NCBI RefSeq assembly: GCF_001432305.1
Contig: NZ_KQ483358.1
Span: forward strand, 2,085,113-2,149,112
Length of the DNA: 64,000 nucleotides
Reading direction: 5' to 3'
Source: Curvibacter sp. PAE-UM
GTDB taxonomy: Bacteria > Pseudomonadota > Gammaproteobacteria > Burkholderiales > Burkholderiaceae_C
In this document: positions 41,078-46,343 of the stretch, piece by piece
Numbering within the stretch: the stretch's first letter is position 1
Layout of the letters: each line of letters opens with the position of its first letter
Translations under genes and position numbers: made by a program
The notes under the pieces: model-generated
The model's database searches: none
Seen by the model: only the letters and a program-made list of their open reading frames with translations
Told to the model about the DNA's origin: nothing

Positions 41078-41959
41078 TCAGGGTGTCGGGCCATCCTCCA
41101 GCCGGTAGAAGGACTGGATCGCCTCCCAGGCGTCTTCAGGCGTATCGACGAAGCTGAACAGCTCGGTGTCCTCGGGCGAGATCACGCCTTCCTCGATCAG
41201 CAGGTCGAAGTTGATCAGCCGTTTCCAGAAATTGCTGCCATGGAGCACCACGGGCACCGGCTCGGACTTGCCGGTCTGCACCAGCGTGAGGATCTCGAAC
41301 AGTTCATCGAGCGTGCCGAAGCCGCCGGGAAAGGCCACCAGCGCCTTGGCACGCATCATGAAGTGCATCTTGCGCAGCGCGAAGTAGTGGAACTTGAAGC
41401 ACAGGCTGGGCGAGATGTAGGGGTTGCCCGACTGCTCGTGCGGCAGGGCGATGTTCAGGCCCACGTTGAGGGCGCCCGCTTCGTGCGCGCCGCGGTTGGC
41501 CGCTTCCATGATGCCCGGGCCGCCGCCGGTGCAGATGTAGAGGCGCTCGCTGTGCGACAGGTGTCTGCTGTGCTCGGCGACCAGGCGCCCGAACTGGCGG
41601 GCCTGATCGTAGCGCTGGGCATTGCGCATGTCGCGTTCGGCGCCTTGCAGGGCTGTGGCGTCCCCGCTGGCGCGTGCGGCGTCCAGCCGGGCCTGCGCCG
41701 TCTCGGGCGAGGGAAAGCGTGCGCTGCCGAAGACCACGATGGTGTTGGTCACGCCTTGTTCCTGCTGTTCCAGGTCGGGCTTGAGCATCTCCAGCTGGAA
41801 GCGGATGCCGCGTGTTTCACGGCGCAGCAGGAATTCGGGATCGGCAAAAGCCAGGCGGTAGGCATCGGCCTGCAGGGGCATGCCGGCATCGGCATGGGCT
41901 TTCAGGTCGGCCCAGGCATCGGCCAGGGTGCGGGTGCTGAGATCGCGCGTGGTCTTCAT
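41078..41959 (-). CDS. LOG family protein (TIGR00730-type, NMP nucleosidase-like)
   Basis: 293 residues from the ATG at 41959; 11 upstream codons overlap the previous gene. The Rossmann-like LOG core carries VVFGSARFPSPETAQ, the nucleotide-binding TGGGPGIMEAANRGA and the catalytic PGGFGTLDELFE. LOG enzymes and PpnN split nucleoside 5'-monophosphates into base and ribose 5-phosphate. An extra N-terminal helical extension of about 75 residues distinguishes it from the short cytokinin-type LOG. It is the third gene of a tight run with PRPP synthetase and AMP phosphorylase homologues, 7 bases after the former. Confidence 0.9.
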   Translation of the reverse strand: MKTTRDLSTRTLADAWADLKAHADAGMPLQADAYRLAFADPEFLLRRETRGIRFQLEMLKPDLEQQEQGVTNTIVVFGSARFPSPETAQARLDAARASGDATALQGAERDMRNAQRYDQARQFGRLVAEHSRHLSHSERLYICTGGGPGIMEAANRGAHEAGALNVGLNIALPHEQSGNPYISPSLCFKFHYFALRKMHFMMRAKALVAFPGGFGTLDELFEILTLVQTGKSEPVPVVLHGSNFWKRLINFDLLIEEGVISPEDTELFSFVDTPEDAWEAIQSFYRLEDGPTP

Positions 41960-41966
41960 GGAAGTC

Positions 41967-42848
41967 TTACTCGCTGGTGAGGGTGGACGCAATGGCGCTT
42001 GCCATGCTCACGGCATTGCTGGGGTGTGCGATGCAGTCGGTGCTCCAGACCTGGCGGATGCCGGCGTCCCAGAGCAGGGCTCCGGCATCGCCGGCAAAGA
42101 GTGCGTGCGTGACGGCCACGTCGACCGAGGCCGCACCGGCGGCCAGCAGGCCGCGGGCCGCCTGGGCCAGGGTGTGGCCGCTGCTGGCGACGTCGTCGAG
42201 CAGCACAATGGCGCGGCCGCGCACGTCCAGCGCCGGCAGGGCGATCTCGACATGGCGGTCACCATGGCGGACCTTGCGGCAGACCGCGTGATCGAAACCG
42301 TGGCGTGCTGCGGCTTGCGCGACCCACTGGGCCGCCTCTTCGTCGGGGCCGATCAGCAGTGCGCCCGGGCGTTGCCGCGCGATCAGGTCGGCCAGCAGCG
42401 GAGCGCCGCTGAGCACCACGGTGCGCGGCACCGGCACGGCTTCCTCAAGCGTGGTCACGCGGTGCAGGTGCGGGTCCACGGTGATGACGGCATCGAAGAG
42501 GCCGGCCAGGAAGCGACCCACGATGCGCTGGCTCACGGCTTCGCCGGGTGTGAAGGCGATGTCCTGGCGCATATAGGCCAGGTAAGGGGCGACCAGGGTC
42601 AGTTGCGCGGCGCCTAGCGTGCGGGCCGTCTGCGCGGCGAGCAGCAACTCGACCAGCTTTTCATTGGGCTGGGCCAGCGTGCGCAGGAGCACCACGTGCG
42701 CTGGCAGCGTGGCCGGCAGGCGCAGCTTGAATTCGCCATCCGGGAACCGGTGGCGTGTGATGCAGGCGTGCGGGATGCCCGCTGCGCCGGCGATGCGCGC
42801 GGCGCTCTCGGTCTCGTCTTCAAAGTGCAGCAGCAGGGCAGGACGCAT
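41967..42848 (-). CDS. Ribose-phosphate pyrophosphokinase family protein, divergent
   Basis: 293 residues, somewhat shorter than housekeeping Prs (about 315). Family blocks: RFPDGEFKLRLP, PYLAYMRQDIAFTPGEAVSQR, the K-x-R flexible loop in CRKVRHGDRHVEI, and the PRPP loop VLLDDVASSGHTL. The usual DLHxxQIxGFF segment is replaced by VDPHLHRVTTLEE. It should transfer pyrophosphate from ATP to a ribose phosphate; whether the acceptor is ribose 5-phosphate or another (for example ribose 1,5-bisphosphate from the neighbour) is open. It lies 2 bases after the phosphorylase stop. Confidence 0.88.
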   Translation of the reverse strand: MRPALLLHFEDETESAARIAGAAGIPHACITRHRFPDGEFKLRLPATLPAHVVLLRTLAQPNEKLVELLLAAQTARTLGAAQLTLVAPYLAYMRQDIAFTPGEAVSQRIVGRFLAGLFDAVITVDPHLHRVTTLEEAVPVPRTVVLSGAPLLADLIARQRPGALLIGPDEEAAQWVAQAAARHGFDHAVCRKVRHGDRHVEIALPALDVRGRAIVLLDDVASSGHTLAQAARGLLAAGAASVDVAVTHALFAGDAGALLWDAGIRQVWSTDCIAHPSNAVSMASAIASTLTSE

Positions 42849-42850
42849 CT

Positions 42851-44443
42851 TCAGAACTCCACAAACACGTGCGGCACGTCCTCGGCCCGGCCGATACGGT
42901 AGCCGCTGGAACGTGCGCAGGCCTGGCGCGCGAACTCCAGGTCGGCCGGGTAGCTGGCGTGCACGCGGTAGAGCACGTCGCCGTCCTGCACCTCGTCACC
43001 GAGTTTGGCGCAAAGGTCGACGCCGGCTTCCTTCACTTTCGGTGCGCCGGCGAAGCGTGCGATGCGCGCCAGTTGCAGGTTGTCGATGCCGCTGACCACG
43101 CCAGCGCCATGCGCGCGGATCTCGAAGCTGAGCCGGCCCAGTTGCGGATGGCTGGGGTCGAAGTGATGGCTGCCCTGGGCTTCGATGATGTCGTTCATCT
43201 TCTTCAGGGCGCGGCCCGAGTCGAGGATGTCGCGCGCGATGGCAAAACCGTCTCCGCCGCGCACATCGGGGTCGGCCTCCAGCATGCGGCCGGCCAGGCG
43301 CAGCGCCTTCTGGCGCAGGTCCATGGGAGCGCGCGGGTCGTTCTCCAGCACACGCATCACGTCGCGCGCCTCCAGCACGGGGCCGATGCCGAAGCCGATG
43401 GGCTGGCGGCCATCGGTGATGACCACGTCGAGCGAGAGTTTCATGCGTCGGGCCACGTACTCGAAGAGACGGCGCAGGCGTTGCGCCTCGGGCATGGAAC
43501 GTACCTTGGCCGTGGGGCCGATGGGAATGTCCAGCACCAGATGGCTGGAGCCCGCGGCGATCTTCTTGGACAGGATCGATGCCACCATCTGCCCCGGCGA
43601 ATCGAGCGCCAGCGGCCGCTCGACCGAGATCAGCACGTCGTCGGCAGGCGAGAGGTTGGCCGTACCGCCCCAGGCCAGGCAAGCGCGGTGCTGGCGGATG
43701 ATTTCCTGCAGGCGCTCGACCTGCAACTCCACCTCGGCGAGTACTTCCATGGTGTCGGCCGTGCCGGCGGGCGAGGGGATGGCGCGCGAGGAGGTCTTGG
43801 GGCAGAGCATGCCGTGCGCCGCCACGATGGGCACCACCAGCATGGAGGTGCGGTTGCCGGGGATGCCGCCGATGCAGTGCTTGTCGACCACCAGCGGCTC
43901 CTGCCAGTCGAGCCGGCGGCCGGCCTCGACCATGGCCTCGGTGAGGAAAAGCACCTCCTCGCGGTCGAGCTCGTCGCGGTTGGCGGCGACGACGAAAGCC
44001 GTGAGTTCGATCTTGGAATAGTGGTGTTCGGTGATGTCGCGCACGATGGCACGGAAGTCGTCCAGTGTCAGGCGCTCGCCGGCCAGCTTGCGGTGCAAGG
44101 CGCCGATGGATTCCGGCGGTTCGGCCTGGGCGACCGTGACGGTGTGGCCGTTTTCCACGGAGAGTTGTTCAAATGCCGCCTTGGACAGGCCGAGCTCGCC
44201 ACAAGCCACGATGGAAGCGTCATCGACCACGTTGAGTGTGGCCAGGATGCTGTGGCCGTTGGTGCGCACCTCGACCTTGGACAGGGCCTTGAAGCCCTCG
44301 GCCCGGTAGACCTCGCAGTCGCGGTGCATGTAGGCCACGTTCTCGTGGTAGGTGTCGATCAGCACGCGGCGCAGGGCCAGGCGCGACGGTTCGCCGCCTG
44401 TCCCCGGGCCGATGGCGCTGGTCGTGGTCTGAGCTTCGTTCAT
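42851..44443 (-). CDS. AMP phosphorylase / putative thymidine phosphorylase (type 2)
   Basis: 530 residues, with an N-terminal beta domain of about 85 residues absent from E. coli DeoA. The phosphate/substrate motifs are [20 protein letters not shown] and [18 protein letters not shown], and [15 protein letters not shown] follows. This subfamily includes archaeal AMP phosphorylase, which converts NMP + phosphate to base + ribose 1,5-bisphosphate. The bacterial members are usually labelled putative thymidine phosphorylase. The next genes (PRPP synthetase-like, LOG) also act on the phosphoribosyl moiety. Confidence 0.9.
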
Positions 44444-44473
44444 GCGGATAGCCTACACCGAATCGGGCACCAA

Positions 44474-44499
44474 AAAACAAAAGGCTCCCGAAGGAGCCT
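44474..44499 (-). terminator. Intrinsic terminator of efp
   Basis: On the minus strand AGGCTCC / GGAGCCT with a four-base loop is followed by TTTTGTTTTTTGG, 24 bases after the efp stop. Confidence 0.85.
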
Positions 44500-44522: not shown

Positions 44523-45077
44523 TCAGACGCGCTTGCGGTATTCGCCGGTGCGGGTGTCGATCTCGACCTTGTCGCCCTGGCTCACGAACAGCGGCACGGG
44601 CACTTCGAAACCGGTGGCAATCTTGGCCGGCTTGAGTACCTTGCCGGAGGTGTCGCCCTTGACGGCGGGCTCGGTCCAGGTGATCTCGCGCTCGACGCTG
44701 GTGGGCAGTTCCACCGAGATGGCCTTGCCGTCATAGAACACCACTTCGACCGCCATGCCGTCTTCCAGGTAGTTCAGGGCGTCGCCCATGTTTTCGGCTT
44801 CGACTTCGTACTGGTTGTAGTCGGCGTCCATGCAGACGTACATGGGGTCGGCGAAGTAGGAGTAGGTGCAGTCCTTCTTGTCCAGGATGACCTGGTCCAT
44901 CTTGTCGTCGGCCTTGAACACGACTTCGGTGCCGAAGTTGGCGATCAGGCTCTTGAGTTTCATGCGCACGGTGGCCGAGTTGCGGCCGCCGCGGCTGTAT
45001 TCGGTCTTGAGCACGACCATCGGGTCCTTGCCGTGCATGATCACGTTGCCGGCGCGGATTTCCTGAGCGATTTTCAT
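44523..45077 (-). CDS. efp: Translation elongation factor P
   Basis: 184 residues from the ATG at 45077 (nine further codons upstream are open but not conserved). KOW-like domain I holds the loop [13 protein letters not shown] with Arg at position 32, the residue rhamnosylated by EarP; OB domains II and III follow. EF-P rescues ribosomes stalled at polyproline. The modification enzyme gene lies next to it, 137 bases upstream. Confidence 0.97.
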
Positions 45078-45214
45078 AAGTTTTCCAATGAGTTGGCCGC
45101 TCAATGCCCCGAGTAAACCGGTGTTCGTGCGGCAGGTAAGGGGAATCCCACAGGCTGAGGCCGGATGGATTCCGCAAAGCCTTGAATTTTAACGTTTTTT
45201 CAGGCCGTTGCAGG

Positions 45215-46288
45215 CTATCTGTGGACGTGTGCCACAAATTCAAGCAGTTGGACGAGCAAGTCGCGTTCGGCGAGCAGCAACTGGCGCGCCTGGATGGCCT
45301 TGGCGCTCCAGGCCTCCAGCTCCGGTACCGGCAGCGGGCCGGTGTCCACGCCGTTCCAGGTGTGGTGGAACGCGCGCAGCGAGGCTGGCGCCTCCAGCCA
45401 GTCCAGCCAGGCTTCCAGCTTGGCGTGGTGGGCGTCGTCGTGCTGCGGGTAGATGTGCCAGACCAGGGGTTTGCCGGCCCACAGGGCCCGCACGAGCGAA
45501 TCCTCGCCGCGCACGAAGTTCAGGTCGCAGGCCCACAGCAGGTGGTCGTAGTCGTCCTGCGTCAGGTAAGGCAGGAAATGCAGTGCCAGGCCGGCCGGGC
45601 GCGCGCAGGCCTGTACCGCGGCCGCGGCGCGGCCGGCGGTGACCAGCAGTTGCACCGGCTGCCCGGCCAGCTGGGCCAGCAAGGCGGGCAGGGCGGCGGG
45701 TTCGTAGCAGAACAGCGAGACCTGGCGGGTGCCCGGCTGCAGGGGAATGCCGTGCCGGGCCAGCCAGGCGGCGCGGTCGAAGCGGGCCTGGCGTTGCAGC
45801 AGATCGGGCTCGCGCAGCAGGCCACCGGTGCGCGGCGTGAAGCCGGGATAGAAAAAACGCCTGGTGAGGCCCCGGCCCGGGCCGTGCATGATGGGGGAAG
45901 GCAGGCCATGGCTGCGCTCCACATAGTCCTCGGCCGAGAGGTATTCCAGGTTGATCCAGCGGGCGGGCCGGCCATCGGCGGCGCGCCATTGCACGTACAG
46001 CGCGACGAAGGCCTCCGGGATGTCGCAGCCGAAGGCCTCGACCAGCACGTCGCCGGGCTCCAGGTCGTCCAGGGCCAGCGGTTCGGTCCAGGGGTGCACT
46101 TCAACTCCGGGGCAGCCCTGCGGTGCCATCCAGCTCAGCGCGCTGGCATCGTCCACCCACAGGCGCACGGCCTGGCCGCGGCCCGCCAGCTGGCGGGCCA
46201 GCCGCCAGCACACGCCGATATCACCATGGTTGTCGATGACCTTGCAGAAGATGTCCCAGCGCAGGGCGGATGCGGGCAGGGTCGTCAT
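45215..46288 (-). CDS. earP: EF-P arginine rhamnosyltransferase EarP
   Basis: 357 residues from the ATG at 46288. A GT-B glycosyltransferase: N-terminal WDIFCKVIDNHGDIGVCWRLARQL with the catalytic Asp, and C-terminal NFVRGEDSLVRALWAGKPLVWHIYPQ, whose RGEDS contacts dTDP-rhamnose. It attaches rhamnose to Arg32 of EF-P. It is divergent from sbcB with a 55-base shared promoter region and reads toward efp. Confidence 0.96.
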   Translation of the reverse strand: MTTLPASALRWDIFCKVIDNHGDIGVCWRLARQLAGRGQAVRLWVDDASALSWMAPQGCPGVEVHPWTEPLALDDLEPGDVLVEAFGCDIPEAFVALYVQWRAADGRPARWINLEYLSAEDYVERSHGLPSPIMHGPGRGLTRRFFYPGFTPRTGGLLREPDLLQRQARFDRAAWLARHGIPLQPGTRQVSLFCYEPAALPALLAQLAGQPVQLLVTAGRAAAAVQACARPAGLALHFLPYLTQDDYDHLLWACDLNFVRGEDSLVRALWAGKPLVWHIYPQHDDAHHAKLEAWLDWLEAPASLRAFHHTWNGVDTGPLPVPELEAWSAKAIQARQLLLAERDLLVQLLEFVAHVHR

Positions 46289-46343
46289 GCACGGGATTGT
46301 GCCCGCTTTGGCCATCGTCCAGAGCGCGGGGCACAATCACGCG

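Follow-up and report, generated by a model that had tools for sequence, protein, structure and literature searches.

What becomes of the ribose 1,5-bisphosphate (R15P) that a bacterial phosphorylase of nucleoside 5′-monophosphates (NMPs) would release is the question raised by a small gene cluster of Curvibacter sp. PAE-UM. The cluster lies in the window analysed here, a stretch of 64,000 nucleotides (contig NZ_KQ483358.1, positions 2,085,113 to 2,149,112) from a genome of 3.63 Mb in 4 contigs, and consists of the following genes:

42851..44443, minus strand: NMPP, NMP phosphorylase-like protein of 530 amino acids (annotated 'thymidine phosphorylase family protein'), carrying the N-terminal domain known from archaeal AMP phosphorylase
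41967..42848, minus strand: Prs2, divergent protein of 293 amino acids resembling phosphoribosyl pyrophosphate (PRPP) synthetase
41078..41959, minus strand: LOG-family gene (TIGR00730), accessory, the third gene in a small group of betaproteobacteria; its start is taken as the in-frame ATG at 41959 (the listed open reading frame (ORF) starts at TTG 41992)

The intergenic gaps of 2 bases (NMPP-Prs2) and 7 bases (Prs2-LOG) reported in the initial annotation were read off the minus strand as described, and profile searches returned the same three families. The reading that we favour, with somewhat less than even confidence, is that NMPP makes R15P from NMPs and that Prs2 acts on this R15P, most simply by the reaction R15P + AMP → ribose 5-phosphate (R5P) + ADP, which would allow ribose and energy to be recovered from RNA at low oxygen.

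In profile searches, NMPP scored well above the cut-offs of NF003338 (703 bits, cut-off 434) and TIGR02645 (615 bits, cut-off 435) and matched TIGR03327 'AMP phosphorylase' with 500.6 bits over residues 24-512, under the equivalog cut-off of 535. Since this alignment begins at residue 24 and the listed pyrimidine-nucleoside phosphorylases align only from residue 114-116, NMPP has an N-terminal domain ahead of the helical domain; such a domain is absent from thymidine phosphorylases. Its best solved relative is 4ga5, a 'putative thymidine phosphorylase' (E 9e-106) that we take to be the AMP phosphorylase of T. kodakarensis; pyrimidine-nucleoside phosphorylases follow from E 3e-38. The thymidine and pyrimidine-nucleoside phosphorylase profiles were matched only under their cut-offs (TIGR02644, 198.5 bits of 409; NF004490, 193.5 of 269; TIGR02643, 146.6 of 571). 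Pyrimidine-nucleoside phosphorylases employ the Lys of a DKxE motif after the GT loop; this Lys is absent from NMPP (P0003), which reads ADTME there, compared with IDKLE in two solved enzymes of that type. Judging by its family and its archaeal relatives, NMPP would phosphorolyse NMPs (NMP + Pi → base + R15P). A passage of PMC9700705 describes R15P from the archaeal relatives as passing through R15P isomerase to RuBisCO.

The partner of NMPP was sought in 249 genomes of the phylum, a phylogenetically uneven sample in which 11 of the 30 pair-bearing genomes come from one family (f30). NF003338 was found above cut-off in 30/249 genomes and NF005537 'ribose-phosphate diphosphokinase', which Prs2 matches with 384 bits (cut-off 322), also in 30/249; the two sets are identical (Fisher p 2e-39), 219 genomes have neither above cut-off, and one genome (G154) has two copies of each gene. 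Prs2 adjoins NMPP in 80/80 of the nearest named loci (the top matches among 584 that were retrieved by their similarity to NMPP; the closest, with 89% NMPP identity, is from a Hylemonella metagenome-assembled genome) and, by tblastn, in 28 of a wider set of 30 loci, which come from the other 29 genomes with the pair. One of the two exceptions is split by contig ends, with a C-terminal piece of NMPP and Prs2 together on contig C46; the other has RNase and phosphoketolase-like genes in between. Pairwise distances of NMPP follow those of Prs2 with rho 0.91, against 0.22 for the housekeeping Prs (28 of the 30 genomes: G036, which a motif filter removed, and G236, which has no whole locus, were left out and one G154 copy was used). 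Thus, NMPP and Prs2 travel as a unit. The housekeeping Prs is a second Prs in the genome of the window (411 bits), and a TIGR01251 match of at least 358 bits stands alongside Prs2 in this genome and in 28/29 others, the exception being a 70%-complete genome.

The two genes are also retained together where they are not adjacent. In the two plasmid stretches of Azospirillum oryzae that were viewed, NMPP (adjoining an RNase of the metallo-beta-lactamase (MBL) fold) and Prs2 are on different plasmids (L181, L186), and in its relative A. ramasamyi they are likewise on two records. Among plasmid records, 103 carry Prs2-like and 114 NMPP-like matches, counted with different E limits. The NMPP-Prs2 pair is real and mobile, its members strictly co-occur in the sample, and the conserved unit is this two-enzyme module, not the trio. 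As a pathway, the bacterial pair was not found described in the open-access text of PubMed Central, an absence that is weakly shown since '1,5-bisphosphate' is unsearchable as written; the related match there was an expression table for B. diazoefficiens, treated below.

The AlphaFold2 model of Prs2 (predicted local distance difference test score 93.5) is closest among solved folds to 1u9y, the Prs of M. jannaschii (template modelling score 0.86/0.92). Two segments set Prs2 apart:

42459..42473, minus strand: Prs2 residues 126-130, PHLHR; catalytic His127 retained, QIQGFF segment replaced; H127, H129 and R130 invariant in 30 Prs2 proteins
42324..42350, minus strand: Prs2 residues 167-175, GPDEEAAQW; catalytic Asp169 retained, Glu171 in place of the housekeeping Gly

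The first segment had been singled out in the initial annotation as VDPHLHRVTT replacing the normal Prs sequence. It is indeed present, but the catalytic His is retained and the QIQGFF stretch is also absent from the M. jannaschii enzyme (TINPHE there), which argues that the segment is the mark of an archaeal-like type and not of a dead enzyme. Residues F35, D37, H127, D169, K192, R194, D218, D219 and T226, at positions for Mg, adenine, R5P and catalysis, are invariant in 30/30 Prs2 proteins. In terms of the E. coli enzyme, positions F35, D37, R96, Q97, D98, H131, D170, the catalytic Lys and Arg, D220, D221 and T228 are retained in all 30; roles for F35, D37, R99, H131, D170, D220, D221, T225 and T228 are given in the part of PMC9232217 that treats these residues. 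The D224 position is Ser in 29/30 Prs2 proteins and likewise in the three archaeal Prs compared. Given the invariant catalytic residues, a dead or regulatory paralog is unlikely. The allosteric positions R49, S81, R105, Q136 and D144 (numbered as in E. coli; an excerpt of PMC6332680 lists allosteric residues of Prs) are lost or variable. At the position of R99, a ligand of the beta phosphate, just 9/30 have a basic residue, and replacement of its human counterpart K99 by Ala made activity undetectable, as reported in a section of PMC4363470; this is a weak argument, since T. volcanium is likewise non-basic here.

The clearest change is at the second segment. The position of E. coli G172 is Glu (Glu171) in 30/30 Prs2 proteins and Gly in 29/29 housekeeping Prs, and it is Gly in three archaeal Prs as well (PDKGA in 1u9y, PDRGA in 4twb, PDDGG in 3mbi), so that the PDxG loop of PRPP synthases (EC 2.7.6.1) is replaced throughout. 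The housekeeping set had first been chosen by a motif filter that itself contained PDxGG (28/29 pass, G036 dropped); a filter-free repeat gave SPD[VI]GG in 29/29. The combined signature [GA]PDxE[SAT]xxW and H[LM]HR was found in 122 of the 123 loci with a Prs2 match (127 given), and the single deviating protein (GPDEESAPL) is the same Prs2 of A. oryzae (L181) mentioned above. From phosphoribosyltransferase structures, we take the loop with Glu171, Gly in the PDxGG form, to be the one that holds pyrophosphate. Besides the housekeeping Prs and Prs2, two pair-bearing genomes have a third Prs-like gene, which scores about 200 bits (G087:C1:1436418-1437374 and G019:C1:555399-556334).

Known consumers of R15P are scarce in the genomes with the pair. 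R15P isomerase (TIGR00511), of which the initial annotation had seen no gene in view, was above cut-off in 0/30; weaker matches of 139-180 bits (cut-off 314) in 16/30 are probably related isomerases. PhnN was above cut-off in 4/30, and all 30 have some match, 26 of them below cut-off and probably related kinases. RuBisCO is present in 17/30. None lies in the window, as had been noted from the letters, but the genome has a RuBisCO large subunit ~0.85 Mb away which, with a small subunit behind it, looks by eye like form I. A route through R15P isomerase and RuBisCO was rejected, since the isomerase is missing above cut-off despite the 17 genomes with RuBisCO, and PhnN was rejected as general R15P consumer on its four occurrences. 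R15P therefore needs another consumer. Since Prs2 is the constant partner and belongs to a fold that transfers phosphate groups at the C1 position of R5P, while isomerase and PhnN are scarce, it is the best candidate, and that Prs2 uses R15P is our best inference.

Canonical Prs in reverse converts PRPP and AMP to R5P and ATP. The simplest chemistry for Prs2 would be the same back-reaction minus one phosphate, R15P + AMP → R5P + ADP, which would demand no change of geometry and would suit a loop repelling the outer phosphate. R15P would then be the substrate of Prs2, a new assignment, rather than PRPP its product for biosynthesis. The net reaction of the two enzymes, NMP + Pi + AMP → base + R5P + ADP, would keep the energy of the glycosidic bond. 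R5P may join the pool of the pentose phosphate pathway or Calvin cycle; in clusters that encode phosphoketolase and acetate kinase, it may instead pass through these two, yielding ATP. NMPs could be supplied by a beta-CASP RNase of the MBL fold, and the module may come into use at high AMP under a shortage of oxygen or energy.

Recurrent neighbours of the pair are consistent with breakdown. Neighbour families were called with a simple ORF picker that recovered Prs2 in 97/111 loci (tblastn finds more), so that the counts are lower bounds. The beta-CASP RNase adjoins the pair in at least 11 of the 110 loci with NMPP called (111 given), 6 times upstream and 5 times downstream, in no case on the opposite strand; once plasmid loci are included (128 given), 25 have a match no more than 5 kb from NMPP. 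At E ≤ 1e-30 it matches in 18/30 pair-bearing genomes and 32/219 without the pair. A divergent phosphoketolase-like protein (PF03894, ~133 bits), mostly annotated 'xylulose 5-phosphate 3-epimerase' (L055:4709-7066, L178:10012-12381), is encoded on 15 plasmid records: within 0.6 kb of Prs2 on 12, several of which are near-identical, and at ~8 kb and ~57 kb on one each; the fifteenth has no NMPP or Prs2 annotated within 9 kb. The gene tables of the plasmids are incomplete, and further unlisted neighbours may exist. In the genome sample, this divergent group accounts for 9 matches of 135-154 bits to the phosphoketolase profile XFP; the other matches score 227-229 bits (2) and 278-309 bits (29).

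Single clusters bring these functions together. On one strand of a Criblamydia sequanensis plasmid (L190) lie genes for a P-type ATPase, phosphoketolase, glucan phosphorylase, an ATP-cone protein, an MBL protein, NMPP, Prs2 and acetate kinase; this occurrence in Chlamydiota suggests that the pair has been transferred between phyla. In Acidovorax sp. T1, MBL, NMPP and Prs2 genes share one strand, and phosphoketolase-like and acetate kinase genes lie on the opposite one, within ~20 kb and with GAPDH between. On a Legionella anisa plasmid (L189, 78-9280) an alternate F1F0 ATPase operon directly follows the NMPP-Prs2 pair. Genes for copper or other heavy metals surround eight of the plasmid copies inspected (L178, L179, L180, L182, L183, L184, L191, L192); other copies lack such surroundings. 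These metal-linked clusters include P-type ATPases, multicopper oxidases and efflux systems, several with DUF2933 and isoprenylcysteine methyltransferase-like genes. Separately, a phosphoketolase-like gene was seen near an opposite-strand beta-CASP RNase in four genomes lacking NMPP and Prs2 above cut-off, at

G062:C1:4399053-4402381, G058:C1:115491-118821, G146:C12:160643-163971 and G023:C11:65936-69250

The two families thus associate even without the pair.

Published data may link the genes to oxygen limitation. According to Table 2 of PMC6515984, the Bradyrhizobium diazoefficiens 110spc4 products bll3115 (MBL fold metallo-hydrolase), bll3116 (ribose-phosphate pyrophosphokinase) and bll3117 (thymidine phosphorylase family protein), which have adjacent tags, rise in microoxia by log2 2.9, 4.4 and 2.1 at the protein level, and the same source gives transcript rises of 15.4-, 7.7- and 5.1-fold; a phosphoketolase family protein, bll2518, also goes up (log2 protein 4.3, transcript 8.2-fold). 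Upstream regions were scanned for FNR-type boxes in 121 of the 128 given loci, those in which NMPP is matched and 260 or more bases precede it, with 2420 random windows from the same loci as control. Boxes with up to 2 mismatches were found in 26/121 loci against 10.8% of random windows, and with up to 1 mismatch in 6/121 against 1.6%.

A more far-reaching version of the proposal, which we consider possible but somewhat doubtful, is that Prs2 is an R15P:AMP phosphotransferase of PRPP-synthetase fold, obligately paired with an NMP phosphorylase, and that with the beta-CASP RNase, the phosphoketolase-like enzyme and acetate kinase the pair makes up a mobile pathway by which bacteria would gain ATP from their own RNA at low oxygen, a bacterial pentose bisphosphate pathway with no need of R15P isomerase or RuBisCO.

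A number of observations weigh against these proposals. We know of, and found, no enzyme activity for any bacterial member. NMP phosphorolysis and phosphate transfer from R15P to AMP are both expected to be somewhat uphill and would thus need a pull. All residues for ordinary PRPP synthesis are kept, pointing to a possible working PRPP synthase, and the argument from Glu171 concerns sequence and the presumed pyrophosphate contact of the loop, not the direction of the side chain. No RNase match was found in the 11 pair-bearing genomes of family f30, which we guess to be zetaproteobacteria. Genome-wide enrichment of phosphoketolase is mild (9/30 vs 28/219, p 0.019), so that as a genome-wide partner it has only modest standing; six genomes of the sample that lack NMPP also have members of its low-scoring, phosphoketolase-like subgroup, and the genome of the window has no phosphoketolase match at E ≤ 1e-15. 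Upstream of the genes in the window there is no FNR box (the best has 4 mismatches), and with their mild enrichment such boxes are weak as proof of oxygen control. Finally, the identification of the B. diazoefficiens genes rests on the names of their products and on adjoining locus tags rather than on sequence, and the tables of PMC6515984 place the three genes and bll2518 in the 71 added at a lenient threshold and not in the core 62, mark none as FixK2 or NifA target and list no change in soybean bacteroids.

The strongest alternative, unlikely in our view yet with an appreciable chance, is that Prs2 is a genuine isozyme of PRPP synthase that ADP does not inhibit, its PRPP serving the reuse of bases freed by NMPP and of others, and R15P going to another enzyme. 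Full retention of the catalytic residues with loss of the allosteric ones is what such an isozyme would show, and both the ribose-phosphate diphosphokinase annotation and the nearest solved fold, that of a PRPP synthase, agree with it. A housekeeping Prs is, however, already there, and the strict co-occurrence with an R15P-producing enzyme, the invariant Glu171 and the catabolic neighbours would be left unexplained.

Less probable is that Prs2 acts as a kinase of R15P in place of PhnN (R15P + ATP → PRPP + ADP), with the ribose of NMPs recovered as PRPP. The rarity of PhnN itself would leave room for such an enzyme, and a passage of PMC9700705 describes the step from R15P to PRPP in E. coli through PhnN. 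For this, a site made for attack on the beta-phosphate would have to pass a gamma-phosphate to a phosphate group, and an acidic residue at the loop thought to hold pyrophosphate speaks against a PRPP product. The initial annotation had suggested a similar cycle. Recovery of the pentose phosphate while bases are freed is part of our proposal too; a cycle that ends in PRPP is a possibility, but we favour it less, since the recurrent partners (RNase, phosphoketolase-like protein, acetate kinase) are catabolic. Somewhat less probable again is that both reactions run in reverse as a cheap salvage route, R5P + ADP → R15P + AMP followed by R15P + base → NMP + Pi. This is the thermodynamically easier direction, but the same partners and the microoxic induction point to breakdown.

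The LOG gene, the third enzyme of the cluster, scores 112 bits with TIGR00730, above the subfamily cut-off of 96.35, and 114 bits with PF03641; with the LOG and PpnN equivalog profiles it stays far under the cut-offs (31/300 and 30/450 bits). Its product, for which NMP + H2O → base + R5P would be expected, appears to have been added in the group of this strain. The gene was found directly behind Prs2 in 7/80 nearest loci (L098, L100-L103, L109, L154), within ~3 kb in 3 more (L106, L110, L112) and as a far match in one (L174); 69/80 have no LOG match at E ≤ 1e-10, at least two of these (L157, L162) having contigs that end too soon to see one. There was also no match in the 30 wider loci, among which the place cannot be seen in L047, L049 and L061 (contig end or no Prs2). 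LOG is a local addition, an accessory gene outside the conserved unit, and the three-gene set that the initial annotation proposed as a unit gave way in the comparison across genomes to its first two genes. That the trio nevertheless functions as one operon for nucleotide recycling in this lineage, for which the 7-base gap, the shared strand and the seven loci speak, is very improbable, and as a general conserved unit it is largely refuted by these counts.

One further element was noted by eye, with no tool score, between NMPP and the stop of the gene upstream of it:

44472..44499, minus strand: GC hairpin AGGCTCC TTCG GGAGCCT followed by a T-rich stretch

It looks like the terminator of that upstream gene. 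By their sequences we take the genes at 44523-46336, upstream of NMPP, to be elongation factor P and its arginine rhamnosyltransferase EarP.

If the proposal is true, it gives the fate of R15P in bacteria, corrects two widely used annotations, 'thymidine phosphorylase family protein' and 'ribose-phosphate diphosphokinase', and adds an energy-conserving route of RNA breakdown under oxygen limitation; the genes concerned are on many plasmids, frequently near copper and heavy-metal genes.

Several known systems invite comparison. With the LOG and PpnN nucleotide 5′-monophosphate nucleosidases the cluster shares a TIGR00730 member with a PGGFGTLDE stretch, which we take to be the LOG-type motif; here that gene is merely accessory and below both equivalog cut-offs. 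PhnN, ribose 1,5-bisphosphokinase, acts on R15P, the substrate proposed for Prs2, but has an unrelated P-loop kinase fold and occurs above cut-off in four genomes only. The class III (archaeal) PRPP synthase of M. jannaschii (1u9y) is alike in fold, in catalytic residues and in the absence of the QIQGFF segment, whereas Prs2 has GPDxE[SA], the extra HLHR motif and a constant partner in NMPP. A parallel for the chemistry is the archaeal NMP shunt, or pentose bisphosphate pathway, of Thermococcus kodakarensis (NMP phosphorylase, R15P isomerase, RuBisCO): the first enzyme, its R15P product and the freeing of bases from NMPs are alike, but where the archaeal route has R15P isomerase, the bacterial pair has none above cut-off in its 30 genomes, RuBisCO in 17 of them and a Prs paralog as constant partner.

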